From NCBI GenBank assembly GCA_023248215.1, contig JAHFEW010000039.1, forward strand, positions 1 to 39,987: a stretch of 39,987 nt of DNA, written 5' to 3'. The notes beneath the pieces are model-generated. The model did no database searches. It worked only from the letters and a program-made list of their open reading frames with translations, and was not told where the DNA came from. Positions 4,312-16,957 of this stretch are shown in pieces. The DNA comes from Nitrospira sp. (lineage in GTDB: Bacteria; Nitrospirota; Nitrospiria; Nitrospirales; Nitrospiraceae). Made by a program: the position numbers and the translations under genes. Each line of letters starts with the position of its first letter. Positions within the stretch are counted from its first letter, which is position 1.

Positions 4312-5403
4312 CTATCGGCGGGGTTGGCTATTCAGGGATGAGTCGCCGATCGATGGACCGACGCCTCGCATCTGCACTGATGACGAACTGTCCGCATTTT
4401 CAGCCCCGTTGATCTCAAACCCGAACGCATTCGGCAAGGTGGTGTCTTGCGTGTGGGGGCCGACCCGGTCCGGCAGGGTACTTTCCTTGAGGTCTTCTCC
4501 CCTTCGGGGACGTAGCGATTCATTCACATTGCTGTAGGGCGATACCGTCGCCCCTATGTCGGCGCCGAAGCTCGGATTGAGGGAGCGGTTCAAATTCGTG
4601 TTTTCAATGTCTCCCCCGATCCTCGTCGGAATCGTCGTGTCCTGAATGTCCATGCCTGTCGGGGCTGATCCCGGCGGTTTTCTGGGACGAATGTCACGAG
4701 TAATGGCCTCTCGTTCCTCCTCGATGCGTCGTTCTTCCCTGGCGCGCTGCTCATACTCCAACGAGTCGAGTTTCTCGAATCGCTCGCCCAGTTCCGTAAG
4801 TCGAGTCTTGATTTTCCTGAGGTCATCCCGCGCGGTGGCGACCGTGCCGACGATTTCGCTGAGCGTCCACTGACGCGCAAACGTGCCGAGTTTGGGGGAT
4901 TGGCCGGGTCCGCCGCCCAGTCCACCCGCACCGCTCCCTACTCCGAAGCCCGCACTGTTGTAGATGCCTTTTTGTTGGACCGACATGAGAAGGTGATTGG
5001 ACTGCTCTAGGAGCTCGTCGATTCGTTCGAGCGAGTCAAAGGCGCTGGCGCAGCAGTCGAGAAATTCACGGTACTCCCGTGTAAATTTCGATGCTTCATT
5101 CTGAATGTCGACAATTTTTAGCGGTTCTTTTTGCATCGACTCATCGTGGCCGGACTGATCGAGCTTGTCCGGTTTCCTGGAGTCGCGCTCTGCATCGTAC
5201 AGGGGTGTGCAGCCTGCATCGGGAGTGGCGGTAATCTGCTTGTCGGCCCTACGATTCGGGCACCAATAGATTTTACCGGGCTGATTTAAGGGATTGTCCG
5301 TTCTAAACTCACCCGCTCGGGCAGCGGGCCAGGGCTCAACGACGAGCAGGCTGATGAGCAGCGTCACCCCGATACTTAGATGATGGGCGGAGGTCATACG
5401 CAT
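4312..5403 (-). CDS. Secreted coiled-coil protein with C-terminal short repeats, function unknown
   Basis: A 363-residue protein from the ATG at 5403; a TTG at 5442 would add 13 residues. It opens with a signal peptide (MRMTSAHHLSIGVTLLISLL, likely cut after ARA), so it is exported. A region with CPN and two further Cys (FLDCCASAF) precedes a Gly-rich linker, then a charged coiled coil of about 50 residues (RDDLRKIKTRLTELGERFEK and onwards). The last third is Asn/Asp/Thr-rich with degenerate units beginning G-x-D-(I/L)-x-x-(T/S): GMDIQDTT, GGDIENTN, GADIGATV, GEDLKEST, and a weaker GPHTQDTT. It resembles no family I recognise. It converges on the propeller gene with 27 bp between stops. Neither start has a clear ribosome binding site. 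Confidence 0.65.
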   Translation of the reverse strand: MRMTSAHHLSIGVTLLISLLVVEPWPAARAGEFRTDNPLNQPGKIYWCPNRRADKQITATPDAGCTPLYDAERDSRKPDKLDQSGHDESMQKEPLKIVDIQNEASKFTREYREFLDCCASAFDSLERIDELLEQSNHLLMSVQQKGIYNSAGFGVGSGAGGLGGGPGQSPKLGTFARQWTLSEIVGTVATARDDLRKIKTRLTELGERFEKLDSLEYEQRAREERRIEEEREAITRDIRPRKPPGSAPTGMDIQDTTIPTRIGGDIENTNLNRSLNPSFGADIGATVSPYSNVNESLRPRRGEDLKESTLPDRVGPHTQDTTLPNAFGFEINGAENADSSSSVQMRGVGPSIGDSSLNSQPRR

Positions 5404-5504
5404 TGCAGGTTCGATGATGCGCTTGGGATGAAATTGTGTCAATCAAACCGGGGAATTGTGGTGCCTCGAGACGCCCGCTGTCGTTCGTTCCGCGACTTCA
5501 GGCA

Positions 5505-6020
5505 ATGGAATTTGGGAGGGCCGAGCCGGAGGTTGCATTTGCGCAACTGCCAGACGAGATGGAACTGGCTGAACAGTCTTTGTCCCCTGTGGCCGCTGTG
5601 CCGATGGCACGTTGGGCCGAGCTTCACCTTCTTGCGCGGGATCTGGAAAAGTTCGAGCACGCTACGGCGCCTTTTCCGCGCATTACTCACGAGGAGGCCA
5701 GGTGCAAGAAGAACTTCTGGCGCCTGTTCCACGCCATCATCTTCCGGGCGAGACGTGCAGCGGCCTGGAGCACATACCACCAACGATTTCCAGCCCGCGT
5801 AGGCTACATCTCTTCTATCTTGGGTACCGGGCAGCGCATATCTGTCTGGCCTTCCGGCCCGGTAACAATCGAAGTCTCGATTCGGGCTGAATTCTGCCTC
5901 ACATCTCTTTCATTGGTGGGCGAGTTTCCCACAGTGTTATCCACAAATGTGGATAACTTTTTTGTTCATTCTCGTTCGAAGTGCGGCTTGCGAAAACTGA
6001 ACAATATTCTTGATAAATAG
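5505..6020 (+). CDS. Doubtful open frame in the dcw leader, possible gene remnant
   Basis: A frame of 171 codons from the ATG at 5505 (open back to a GTG at 5436). The first part looks protein-like and uses ordinary codons for this genome, for example QLPDEMELAEQSLSPVAAVP and then WAELHLLARDLEKFEHA. The last third runs through the DnaA-box cluster and AT-rich leader, where coding is unlikely. No ribosome binding site is evident before 5505 and I recognise no family. It may be spurious, or the decayed start of a gene whose 3' end has been lost. The rest of 5404-6099 holds only the regulatory sites listed separately. Confidence 0.22.
   Translation: MEFGRAEPEVAFAQLPDEMELAEQSLSPVAAVPMARWAELHLLARDLEKFEHATAPFPRITHEEARCKKNFWRLFHAIIFRARRAAAWSTYHQRFPARVGYISSILGTGQRISVWPSGPVTIEVSIRAEFCLTSLSLVGEFPTVLSTNVDNFFVHSRSKCGLRKLNNILDK
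5925..5957. promoter_or_regulatory. DnaA-box cluster: two perfect inverted boxes plus one near-match
   Basis: TTATCCACA at 5937-5945 is a perfect consensus DnaA box. Two bases later TGTGGATAA at 5948-5956 is the same box on the other strand, so the pair forms an inverted repeat with 10 bp arms over 5936-5957. TTTCCCACA at 5925-5933 differs from the TTWTNCACA consensus at one position and has the same direction as the first. Box starts are 12 and 11 bp apart. The following ~80 bp is AT-richer than the genome (5957-6045). The cluster lies about 75 bp upstream of the promoter of the division cluster. DnaA binding is inferred from consensus only. Confidence 0.65.
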
Positions 6021-6032
6021 AGGCAAAATCTG

Positions 6033-6060
6033 TTGACAGCTATTTGGTTGGGTGTATACT
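6033..6060 (+). promoter_or_regulatory. Sigma70-type promoter of the division/cell-wall cluster
   Basis: TTGACA (6033-6038), a 16 bp spacer and TATACT (6055-6060) make a near-consensus housekeeping promoter. Transcription should start near 6067, giving a leader of about 33 nt before the rsmH ATG at 6100. No other comparable promoter was noticed down to ftsZ, which fits one long transcript. The -10 box overlaps a GTG (6052) in frame with rsmH, which argues against that upstream start. Confidence 0.75.
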
Positions 6061-6099
6061 CCAGCCGAAGTGTGGGGTGAAGTGGGTGGAAATGGAGAA

Positions 6100-7023
6100 A
6101 TGAATTCTACTCGCGATTCCCATGAGCCGGTTTTAGTCGAAGAAATCATGTTCTGGCTGCAGTGCAAACCAGGTGGAGTTTACGTGGACTGCACTCTCGG
6201 ATATGCAGGGCTGGCTTCTCGCATCCTCGATCACACCGCTCCAGATGGCATCCTTGTGGGAATTGATCGCGATGCGGCGGCACTCGCGGAGTCGCGAATG
6301 CGTCTAGAGGGCAGCATCTCTCGCGTGCACTTGCGACATGGAAACTTTCGCGAGCTCAAGGCGCATGTCCTCGAGAGCGGAGTGCGGCAGGTTGATGGCG
6401 TAATCTTCGATCTTGGCGTGTCATCGCCTCAGCTCGATCGTGCCGAGCGCGGATTTAGTTTTCGGGAAGATGGTCCCTTGGATATGCGCATGGATCAGAG
6501 TGAGGGCTGCACGGCGGCGGACCTCATTCGTGATCTGCCTGAGACAGAGTTGGCCGACCTGATCTATCACCTTGGTGAGGAGCGGTACTCACGGAGAATT
6601 GCCCGAGCGATTGTGCAGGCAAGAATGCAAGGTGTGATCGAGACGACCTGGAAATTAGCTGCCGTGGTGGAGCGCGCCGTGCCGGCTTCGTATCGGCACG
6701 GGCGGATTCATTGTGCCACCCGCACCTTTCAGGCGTTACGGATTGCAGTGAATCGGGAATTGGACGTGCTTGAACCGGCGCTTCGGGATGCCGTGGACAT
6801 TCTGGTGCCTGGTGGGCGAGTCTGTGCCGTCTCGTTTCATTCACTTGAGGACAGAATTGTAAAGAATACGTTTCGGGCGCTGGCAAACGGCCCCGAAGCC
6901 TCGCTGAGAGTATTGACAAAAAAGCCGATCATGGCCTCGGAAAACGAGCGTTGCCGAAACCCGCGGTCGCGGAGCGCAAAGTTGCGCGTCGCAGAGCGGA
7001 TTTCCAAGGAGTGTATGCAATGA
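6100..7023 (+). CDS. rsmH: 16S rRNA m4C1402 methyltransferase RsmH (MraW)
   Basis: A 307-residue SAM-dependent enzyme that N4-methylates C1402 of 16S rRNA in the ribosomal decoding centre. It is the usual first or second gene of dcw clusters. Visible motifs are HEPVLVEEI at the start, the SAM motif DCTLGYAGLA (30-39), GIDRDAAAL, DLGVSSPQLDRAERGFSFRE followed by DGPLDMRMD, TRTFQALRIAVNREL, and VSFHSLEDRIVK near the end. Motif I normally reads GxGGH or GxAGH; here the His is Leu. The usual HPATRTFQ reads HCATRTFQ. The ATG at 6100 is chosen because homologues begin just before HEPVL and the alternative GTG at 6052 sits in the promoter. The stop overlaps the ftsL start (ATGA). No mraZ precedes it. 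Confidence 0.95.
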   Translation: MNSTRDSHEPVLVEEIMFWLQCKPGGVYVDCTLGYAGLASRILDHTAPDGILVGIDRDAAALAESRMRLEGSISRVHLRHGNFRELKAHVLESGVRQVDGVIFDLGVSSPQLDRAERGFSFREDGPLDMRMDQSEGCTAADLIRDLPETELADLIYHLGEERYSRRIARAIVQARMQGVIETTWKLAAVVERAVPASYRHGRIHCATRTFQALRIAVNRELDVLEPALRDAVDILVPGGRVCAVSFHSLEDRIVKNTFRALANGPEASLRVLTKKPIMASENERCRNPRSRSAKLRVAERISKECMQ

Positions 7024-7352
7024 AAGCCGTCGCGTTTGCTGCGGTCACGTCGCTGGTGTTGCTCTTTGTGTGGGAGCGGGTGGACATCGTTCGCATCGGC
7101 TATCACATCGAACGGCTCAAGACGCAGAAGGTCCTTCTTGAGCGTGAGCGCGACGAGCTGCGCGTTAAGCTGTCAGGCTTAACGGCGCCTGAACGGATTG
7201 CCCGGTTGGCCAGTGACAAGTTGGGGATGATGCAGCCGGAGAAAGGTCAGGTCGTCGTGATCAATATCGAGCCTGAGACGCCGGTGAATCCGGTTGTCGC
7301 GGAGGGTGAGATGCGGATCGCCAAAAACATCGTGACGCGGAGAGCGCGGTAG
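7020..7352 (+). CDS. ftsL: Cell division protein FtsL
   Basis: A 110-residue bitopic membrane protein with one N-terminal transmembrane helix (about residues 4-20, AVAFAAVTSLVLLFVW). A leucine-rich periplasmic coiled coil follows (IERLKTQKVLLERERDELRV), then the ERIARLASDKLGM segment typical of FtsL. FtsL joins FtsB and FtsQ and activates FtsW/FtsI at the septum. Sequence conservation in this family is low, so the call also rests on position between rsmH and ftsI. Its ATG overlaps the rsmH stop. The upstream TTG-initiated extension has no support. The stop TAG shares its last base with the ftsI GTG start, suggesting translational coupling. Confidence 0.88.
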   Translation: MKAVAFAAVTSLVLLFVWERVDIVRIGYHIERLKTQKVLLERERDELRVKLSGLTAPERIARLASDKLGMMQPEKGQVVVINIEPETPVNPVVAEGEMRIAKNIVTRRAR

Positions 7353-14601: not shown

Positions 14602-14630
14602 AATGGCGTGGGAGGAACGACAGCTGAACG

Positions 14631-15839
14631 ATGGCACAGCATGCGCTCGGCACACTGACGTTGCCCTGGTCGGCCTCGACCCAGCGGACGCCCAAGCGCG
14701 TGCCGGTGGACCCTGCGCTCTTGGCGGTCACGCTCATTCTTGCTCTGGTGGGGGTCGTGATGGTGTTCAGCGCCAGTGCGGTGGTGGCGGGGAACCGATT
14801 TCACGATCCCTGGTATTTTCTCAAACGCCAGCTCGCCTGGTTGGGCGCCGGCCTTCTCGTGATGCACGTCGTGTCGAAGATCGACTATACCCTCTGGAGG
14901 AAGCTGTCGATCCCATTGTTGTTCGCGACGACGGTGCTGCTGGTCTTGGTGCTCGTCCCGTCGCTCGGCAGTGCAGCCAAGGGGGCGCGACGGTGGCTGC
15001 ATCTCGGTCCGATCAACATTCAGCCGGCCGAGCTGACCAAATTCGTGGCCGTGATTTATGTGGCGGCCTATGTGAGCAAAAAGCAGGACCAGCTCACTCA
15101 GTTCGCCCGCGGACTGTTGCCGCCATTGATCGTCCTCGGGGTGCTCAGCGGATTGGTACTCCTGGAGCCGGACCTGGGAACGGTCGTCGTGATGGGGCTG
15201 GTCGTGGTGACGCTGTTGTTTCTGGCGGGTGCGCGCATCAAACATCTCGGTCTGTTGTCGTTGTGCGCCTTGCCTGCGGTTGCGGCGTTGATTTTTGGAT
15301 CGAGCTACCGACGGCAGCGGCTGATGACGTTTCTGTCTCCCTGGAAGAATGCCTCCGATTCCGGCTTTCAGATTACGCAGTCGTTTCTGGCGTTCGGCAG
15401 CGGGGGACCGTTCGGTGTGGGTCTAGGCGAGGGGAAGCAGAAGTTGTTCTTTCTGCCGGAGGCGCATACCGATTTCGTGCTGGCCTTGGTTGGGGAAGAG
15501 CTGGGGCTGGTCGGCAGTGTGGCGATCGTCTTGCTGTTCGGCCTGTTCGTCCTCAAGGGTTTTCAGATTGCAGGTCGGGCGCGCCATCCGTTCGGCCGGC
15601 ATCTCGCCATGGGCATCACGATGCTGGTCGGTATGCAAGCGCTGGTCAATGCGGGAGTCGTCACCGGTCTCCTGCCGACCAAGGGACTGACTCTGCCGTT
15701 TGTCAGTTATGGCGGGTCGTCGTTAGTGGCCAATTTGTTCGGCGTCGGGATTTTGTTGAGTATCTCTCGCGACCGGCAGGGCGGGCGGGAAAGCGGTGGA
15801 CAGCGTGGTGGGCGAAAGCGCGGGGTCGTCACAGCATGA
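14631..15839 (+). CDS. ftsW: Septal peptidoglycan glycosyltransferase FtsW (SEDS family)
   Basis: A 402-residue polytopic membrane protein of the SEDS family, which polymerises lipid II glycan chains at the septum with FtsI. Conserved stretches are GARRWLHLGPINIQPAELTK (start near residue 118), LLEPDLGTVVVM, the SDSGFQITQSFLAFGSGG loop, GLGEGKQKLFFLPEAHTDFV, and GLLPTKGLTLPFVSYGGSSL near the end. The E-P-D in LEPDLGT includes the catalytic acidic region. A basic Gly/Arg-rich cytoplasmic tail ends the protein. The ATG at 14631 follows GGAGG by about 15 bases, rather far. Its stop overlaps the murG start (ATGA). Confidence 0.96.
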   Translation: MAQHALGTLTLPWSASTQRTPKRVPVDPALLAVTLILALVGVVMVFSASAVVAGNRFHDPWYFLKRQLAWLGAGLLVMHVVSKIDYTLWRKLSIPLLFATTVLLVLVLVPSLGSAAKGARRWLHLGPINIQPAELTKFVAVIYVAAYVSKKQDQLTQFARGLLPPLIVLGVLSGLVLLEPDLGTVVVMGLVVVTLLFLAGARIKHLGLLSLCALPAVAALIFGSSYRRQRLMTFLSPWKNASDSGFQITQSFLAFGSGGPFGVGLGEGKQKLFFLPEAHTDFVLALVGEELGLVGSVAIVLLFGLFVLKGFQIAGRARHPFGRHLAMGITMLVGMQALVNAGVVTGLLPTKGLTLPFVSYGGSSLVANLFGVGILLSISRDRQGGRESGGQRGGRKRGVVTA

Positions 15840-16957
15840 ACATCGTGATCGCAGCCGGTGGAACAGGCGGCCATCTCTACCCGGCCATTGCCGTGGCGCG
15901 GCAGTTTCTGCAGCGCGATCCCTCTACGCGTATCCTGTTCGTCGGCACGACGCGTGGCATCGAACGCAAGGTGTTGGCGCACGAGGGCTTTCCCTTGCAG
16001 TGCATCGCCGCCAACCCTTTGATGGGCAAGCGCCCCAGCGAGATCGTGAAGGCGCTGCTCACGTTGCCGGTGAGTCTGTGGCAATCGCTCAGGATTCTCA
16101 AGGCGCAGGGGGCTGATCTCGTGTTCGGGGTGGGCGGCTATACCAGCCCGGCGATGCTCGTGGCGGCATTTCTGCGACGAATCCCCGGGGTGATTCTTGA
16201 ACCGAACGCCTATCCCGGTATGGCCAATAAAGCGGTTGCGCCGCTCGTGCAGCGAATCTTTCTGGCCTTCGAATCGACCGTGCAATTCTTCGATCGACGC
16301 AAGGCCAGGGTGGTCGGGACACCCGTTCGTCAGGCATTCCTGGACGCACTGGAGCCGGATGCCGGACGAGTCGAGGAAGGCACCATGCGGCATCTGCTGA
16401 TTTTCGGCGGCAGTCAGGGAGCGAAGGCGATCAACTCGGCGGTGATTGAGGCGTTGCCATTGCTCGGCGCTATGAAAGACACACTGACTATCACGCATCA
16501 AACCGGTGAGGCCGACCACGCCCGGGTCGTCGCTGCGTACGAAAACGCCGGCATGCCTGCGCAGGTCGTCCCCTTCTTGTACGACATGCCGACGGTGCTT
16601 CGTACCGCTGACCTCGTGGTTTCCCGGGCCGGGGCCATGACGATTGCCGAACTGACCGTCTGCGGAAAACCGGCGATTCTGATTCCGCTCCCGACAGCGA
16701 TCTACAATCACCAGCTGCGTAATGCGGAGGTGATGGCCAAGGCCGGAGGAGCCGTGCTGTTGCCGCAAGCGGAGTTGACCGGCGCAGGACTGGCTCGAGC
16801 CATCATGGACATTTTGCGCGAGCCTCAGCGGCTTCAGACCATGAGTCGGCACAGTTGGAATATGCGACGCAGTGATGCGGCAGACACCATCGTTCGTGAG
16901 TGTTATGACGTCATAAGGAGGCGCCATGAGACCAGCGGGAGCGCTCGCGCCCTATGA
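15836..16957 (+). CDS. murG: Lipid II synthase MurG
   Basis: A 373-residue peripheral membrane GT-B glycosyltransferase that adds GlcNAc from UDP-GlcNAc to lipid I, making lipid II. The glycine-rich loop GGTGGHLYP is at 8-16. [14 protein letters not shown] and the HQTGEADH region follow, with the UDP-GlcNAc site [18 protein letters not shown] and then the loop [12 protein letters not shown]. The start overlaps the ftsW stop by four bases. A much longer open frame continuing upstream across ftsW is only a shadow. The 3' end overlaps murC by 32 bases and contains the murC ribosome binding site. Confidence 0.97.
16903..16921 (+). promoter_or_regulatory. Palindrome abutting the murC ribosome binding site
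   Basis: TTATGACGTCATAA (16903-16916) is a perfect 14 bp palindrome. Its last two bases overlap the strong Shine-Dalgarno AAGGAGG (16915-16921), four bases before the murC ATG at 16926. All of it lies inside the murG coding end. It could be chance, an operator, or a hairpin affecting access to the murC ribosome binding site. The ribosome binding site is why 16926 was kept as the murC start. Confidence 0.45.

Follow-up and report, generated by a model that had tools for sequence, protein, structure and literature searches.

The question of a transcriptional link between bacterial division genes and DnaA, the initiator of replication, is old and unsettled: in Bacillus subtilis, DnaA binding has come with little demonstrated effect, and the classical Escherichia coli case failed. 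The 39,987-nucleotide stretch of Nitrospira DNA analyzed here (the window) raises the question again, as it carries a cluster of predicted DnaA boxes a short distance upstream of the promoter of the dcw division cluster. What recognizes these boxes, and would it act on the division genes? Comparison of the site with its counterparts in related genomes suggests that the cluster is probably a DnaA operator tying dcw transcription to the replication initiator. The literature that we searched yielded no earlier study of DnaA regulation in Nitrospira.

The box trio and its surroundings at the dcw promoter

The site spans 32 bp (5925–5956) as read directly in the window and comprises three predicted boxes, viz., box III (TTTCCCACA, 5925–5933, plus strand), with one mismatch to TT[A/T]TNCACA, box II (TTATCCACA, 5937–5945, plus strand), and box I (again TTATCCACA, 5948–5956, minus strand), inverted with respect to box II across 2 bp. 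On the strand reading away from rsmH, it takes the form of box I TTATCCACA, 2 bp, inverted box II, 3 bp, and inverted box III TGTGGGAAA. The initial annotation had described two perfect inverted boxes with a near-match, and the direct reading confirms their coordinates and distances. At least two boxes fitting TT[A/T]TNCACA and separated by 2–3 bp, the arrangement by which a DnaA-regulated promoter is recognized, are thus found at 5925–5956. Since the 4.69-Mb genome contains 25 copies of TTATCCACA, as against 16 of the reversed control word, single boxes mean little and the exceptional item is the pair with the 2-bp spacing.

Downstream of the boxes lies a predicted sigma-70-type promoter (TTGACA-N16-TATACT, 6033–6060, plus strand), with the −35 element TTGACA at 6033–6038, a 16-bp spacer, and the −10 element TATACT at 6055–6060. 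It matches the consensus at 11 of 12 positions, is kept in nearly all genera of the order, and has its −35 element about 76–77 bp beyond the last box (76 bp as measured), in agreement with the distance of about 75 bp to a near-consensus promoter given at first. The promoter precedes rsmH (6100–7023, plus strand, ATG at 6100; PF01795, E=3.3e-108) and an ftsL-like gene (7023–7352, plus strand; a weak match to PF04999), which are followed, according to Pfam, by ftsI, murE, murF, mraY, murD, ftsW, murG, murC, murB, ddl, ftsQ, ftsA, and ftsZ, with ftsW, ddl, and ftsQ assigned from position only. An apparent FtsW–MurG fusion ORF (14603–16957) was rejected as a mechanical ORF extension for which Pfam gives MurG domains alone; ftsW is likely a separate 402-aa frame at 14631–15839. 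We also rejected a coding ORF running over the boxes (5436–6020), which has no Pfam match and in relatives shows drift at 5960–5999 and length changes of 1 bp. Upstream of the dcw cluster, a 376-aa ORF on the minus strand (4312–5442) likewise has no Pfam match.

The AT-rich tract noted at first between the boxes and the promoter (5958–6035) is real, but its strong conservation is confined to the part at 6001–6018 and to the promoter. The former is an AT-rich block, ACAATATTCTTGATAAAT, located at about −66 to −49 with a mean pairwise identity of 0.95 in the genus; an exact copy occurs only at the dcw site in five of the six genomes tested, and G004 shows two mismatches. It is a partial match to the IHF consensus TAAnnnnTTGATW, with the TTGATA core present and the other half poor. 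On the far side of the boxes, a GTGGG arm (5916–5920) lies in conserved columns and is inverted relative to the CCCAC of box III (GTGGG-N8-CCCAC, 5916–5933). The combination GTGGG-N3-5-GTTTCCCACA occurs exactly once per genome in the six genomes tested, always at the dcw site, and the arm is not accounted for by the DnaA boxes.

Another predicted operator, of the MraZ type (GTGGGGTGAAGTGGGTGGAAATGG, 6072–6095, plus strand), consists of GTGGG/AGTGGG/ARTGG direct repeats with a 10-bp period, lies downstream of the −10 element, and overlaps the predicted dcw start site. Its pattern has one exact copy each in the source genome, G001, and G023, and one copy with a single mismatch in G004 and G009, while the G007 version falls below the one-mismatch limit; the core GTGG-N6-GTGG is found in 107 of 113 rsmH upstream regions of the order. 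MraZ sites described elsewhere lie close to the start site and consist of GTG-containing repeats with a period of 10 bp (PMC7761207, PMC8475190), and the Nitrospira element resembles in these respects the operators of the E. coli, Burkholderia, and mollicute dcw promoters. It differs from them in that mraZ (C141:9544–9945 in the source genome, coding for two MraZ domains) is unlinked from dcw, lies far from rsmH in the complete relatives, and is without repeats of its own, no GTG repeats having been found upstream of mraZ in the 12 genomes examined. The operator is retained across the order although mraZ has moved out of the dcw cluster, and MraZ would act on the dcw promoter in trans, perhaps on this single target.

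Conservation of the site and its second copy before dnaA

We aligned the rsmH upstream regions of 28 same-genus genomes, of which 27 were used, one region ending at a contig end. All three boxes are kept in 26 of the 27. The nine columns of box III are identical throughout, box I shows 99% column conservation, and box II takes the form TT[A/G]TCCACA, with TTGTCCACA in about half of the relatives. Over the 40 bp that separate the boxes from the following conserved block, the mean pairwise identity falls to 0.46, and box I lies 84–86 bp from the −35 element in 26 of the 27 genomes. The remaining one, G004 (89 bp), is the most divergent member of the genus and has decayed boxes I and II. That the boxes are selectively kept at a constant spacing points to a binding protein for which the distance to the promoter is important. 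Among 85 genomes of other genera, six, belonging to five genera, have an exact TTATCCACA box before the rsmH promoter, at places that are not equivalent; with 400 permutations of the word sought within 350 bp, the mean was 0.19 genomes and none of the 400 reached six. This control, together with the reversed-pattern control below, speaks against a chance origin of the dcw boxes, which we rejected.

The same cassette recurs upstream of dnaA. In all 13 genus genomes examined, TT[A/G]TCCACA-NN-TGTNNATAA starts about 60–64 bp before the dnaA ATG, and the full cassette there reads TTATCCACA, 2 bp, TGTGYATAA, 3 bp, TGTGAACAT, so that the dnaA and dcw sites have one geometry in common (box I, 2 bp, inverted box II, 3 bp, box III). 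A search of 29 genus genomes with the pair pattern TTDTNCACA-NN-TGTGNAHAA recovered two sites in most of them (19 genomes), a single site in seven, three sites in one further genome, and no site in the remaining two, whereas the reversed pattern used as control gave no match in these 29 genomes or in 212 genomes of the order. Of the 27 pair loci fetched, 25 carry dnaA or rsmH at the expected position just beside the pair; the exceptions are L310, which starts at a contig end where dnaA would lie, and L304, which has neither gene. The latter (G021:C1:520072-520091) is a stray inverted pair with the 2-bp spacing, TTTTTCACAGCTGTGTACAA, seen in one genome only and away from dnaA and rsmH. Across the 212 genomes of the order, those outside the genus nearly always have no more than one such pair, and all six of the extra-genus pairs fetched (L318–L323) stand at dnaA. 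Given this distribution, the most plausible reading is that the dcw copy was gained near the base of the genus. The neighboring genus g32 (G198) retains a degenerate version of the dcw box site, as does G004.

Two other box arrangements turned up in the course of these searches. In two relatives, opposed DnaA boxes stand 67 bp apart (L128, G023:C1:342107-342182, and L129, G009:C1:1925016-1925091). In the source genome, the region C108:4159-5482 (L062/L118) combines TTGTCCACA and TTATCCACA about 1.3 kb upstream of dnaA with the inverted pair 64 bp upstream of it; this arrangement is conserved in the genus and is likely the oriC region. The boxes upstream of dnaA that come in addition to the trio occupy C108:4159–5471.

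The manner in which the boxes vary bears on the identity of the protein that reads them. Box II at dnaA appears as TTATGCACA, TTATACACA, TTATTCACA, or TTTTCCACA in different genomes, i.e., its position 5 is A, C, G, or T while the other positions mostly hold (TTATNCACA), and position 3 alternates between A and G at the dcw site, the dnaA site, and other boxes upstream of dnaA. The DnaA box consensus, TT[A/T]TNCACA, is free precisely at position 5 (PMC8682772), and this freedom is a DnaA-box signature rather than that of a generic palindrome. The source genome codes for a full DnaA with the C-terminal helix-turn-helix (domain IV, PF08299, E=1.9e-31). On these patterns, it is very likely that DnaA binds the trio at 5925–5956.

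Competing explanations for the site

A dedicated dimeric transcription factor other than DnaA might instead recognize the 20-bp palindrome at both dnaA and dcw, and the palindromic form of the pair and its near confinement to two promoter regions would suit such a protein. We nevertheless regard this as improbable: the half-sites are exact DnaA boxes with the TTATNCACA degeneracy at position 5 and the A/G alternation at position 3, a variation hardly to be expected with a separate dimeric protein, and unpaired single boxes recur upstream of rsmH in other genera. If DnaA is accepted as the binding protein, a serious alternative, albeit one of low probability, is a DARS-like head-to-head complex, in which the trio would exchange the nucleotide of DnaA from ADP to ATP instead of, or besides, regulating dcw, with the promoter being incidental or a read-out. 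In DARS elements, box I opposes boxes II and III, with equal spacing at DARS1 and DARS2 (PMC5742627), and the head-to-head pair of boxes I and II is an essential feature (PMC10380432, PMC8682772). We read the E. coli MG1655 DARS1 and DARS2 cores directly as box I, 5 bp, inverted box II, 3 bp, inverted box III; the Nitrospira trio thus shares with them the three boxes, the opposition of box I to boxes II and III, and the 3-bp spacing between the latter two. The conserved AT-rich, weakly IHF-like block 44 bp away and the location of the site 0.44–0.72 Mb from dnaA in five complete genomes also fit. Against it, boxes I and II are 2 bp and not 5 bp apart, so that the two DnaA molecules would be rotated differently against each other; the second copy lies just upstream of dnaA, favoring transcription control; and DARS-like sites are described as conserved in proteobacteria. 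The Nitrospira element further differs in being placed before the dcw promoter and dnaA; of the IHF and Fis sites of DARS elements, it has a candidate IHF-type match at 6001–6018. As order, orientation, and one spacing agree and the spacing of boxes I and II does not, we did not file the trio as a DARS.

The remaining readings dispense with transcription control of dcw. The initial annotation had left open an origin-like or titration role, given that the boxes are followed by AT-rich DNA. As the main origin the site is refuted, by the criterion that the initial annotation itself had set, and the chance that it is an origin or a remnant of one is negligible: dnaA, with its own separate box cluster, is located elsewhere (on a different contig from rsmH in the source genome and 0.44–0.72 Mb from it in five complete relatives), and the skew of the complete relative G023, sampled as a proxy at genome scale, keeps a positive sign from dnaA (at position 161) as far as about 2.15 Mb, with rsmH inside this stretch at 717 kb, and is negative beyond about 2.37 Mb up to the end. 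Its sign therefore switches at dnaA and is uniformly positive around rsmH, as it is through 1–38 kb of the window; the dcw site, with three boxes only, stands beside neither dnaA/dnaN nor a skew switch. High-affinity boxes would bind DnaA at any location, and the trio could accordingly titrate DnaA without any effect on transcription, but titration would need neither the constant location nor the constant promoter distance, and three boxes are few; we consider this improbable and weaker than the transcription-factor reading. An intrinsic terminator of an upstream transcript is suggested by a 9-pair hairpin followed by TTTTTT (RNA fold z=−4.4). It is very unlikely, as the inverted boxes account for the strength of the hairpin, a similar inverted pair lies before dnaA, and the conserved GC-rich hairpin with T-run that marks a terminator is lacking: the T-run becomes TTTCCC, TTCCTG, and similar in aligned relatives, T6 being peculiar to the source genome.

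A probable DnaA operator common to dnaA and the division genes

We return to the reading of the trio as a DnaA operator, for which an effect of DnaA on dcw regulation is reasonably probable. The proposal of the initial annotation that DnaA acts here as a transcription factor has gained comparative support (three boxes kept, a fixed promoter distance, and the operator at dnaA), from which we infer DnaA binding and regulation; that annotation had included neither the cassette shared with dnaA nor the DARS-like orientation nor the MraZ operator. Against the operator reading stand box III, an imperfect box, the inverted form of the 2-bp pair, which is not that of the tandem double box tested in E. 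coli, and the decay of boxes I and II in G004. On the proposed mechanism, two DnaA molecules would sit head to head on boxes I and II, and a third would join them in tandem on box III. The trio, about 111–142 bp upstream of the predicted start site (near 6067) and in a fixed helical phase relative to the −35 element, would modulate the promoter, and MraZ would act as a separate regulator at the start site. As the boxes lie clear of the promoter, we lean toward activation or loop-type control over simple occlusion. As the same cassette precedes dnaA, dnaA and dcw would respond jointly to the amount or nucleotide state of DnaA.

Several known systems offer points of comparison. The closest in position is that of B. 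subtilis, whose DnaA binds the ftsL promoter region and is a candidate regulator of division genes, with its site in the promoter serving the rsmH-ftsL end of the cluster (PMC8203912, PMC11019786); in Nitrospira, which belongs to a different phylum, the cassette is common to dnaA and stands upstream of an MraZ-type promoter without mraZ in the operon. In Caulobacter, DnaA is similarly tied to a division gene promoter through activation of ftsZ, but the site there is the ftsZ promoter itself and not the head of dcw (PMC8203912). As a caution, the DnaA boxes upstream of E. coli ftsZ proved irrelevant to its transcription, and a major effect of DnaA on the timing of cytokinesis has yet to be shown in any bacterium (PMC8203912). 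E. coli DnaA favors paired boxes with a gap of 2 or 3 bp, and such double boxes lie upstream of purH, nrdA, mioC, and polA; these were modelled and tested in tandem, whereas the stronger Nitrospira pair is inverted (PMC11317965).

What is new here is a predicted two-promoter regulon (dnaA and dcw) with one common cassette of DARS-like layout. We advance only tentatively, as a rather unlikely extension, that this single three-box cassette, a short-spaced relative of the DARS core, is a common cell-cycle operator, ancestral at dnaA and added before dcw near the base of the genus, at which DnaA dimers in head-to-head arrangement would sense, and perhaps also reset, the nucleotide state of DnaA and at the same time set the transcription of the division genes. 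For nitrifying bacteria, comparative genomics yields a sharp candidate two-promoter regulon defined by one operator, and a defined 32-bp piece of DNA with DARS-like geometry outside proteobacteria. The organization of these sites suggests that one protein would help time both DNA copying and cell division.
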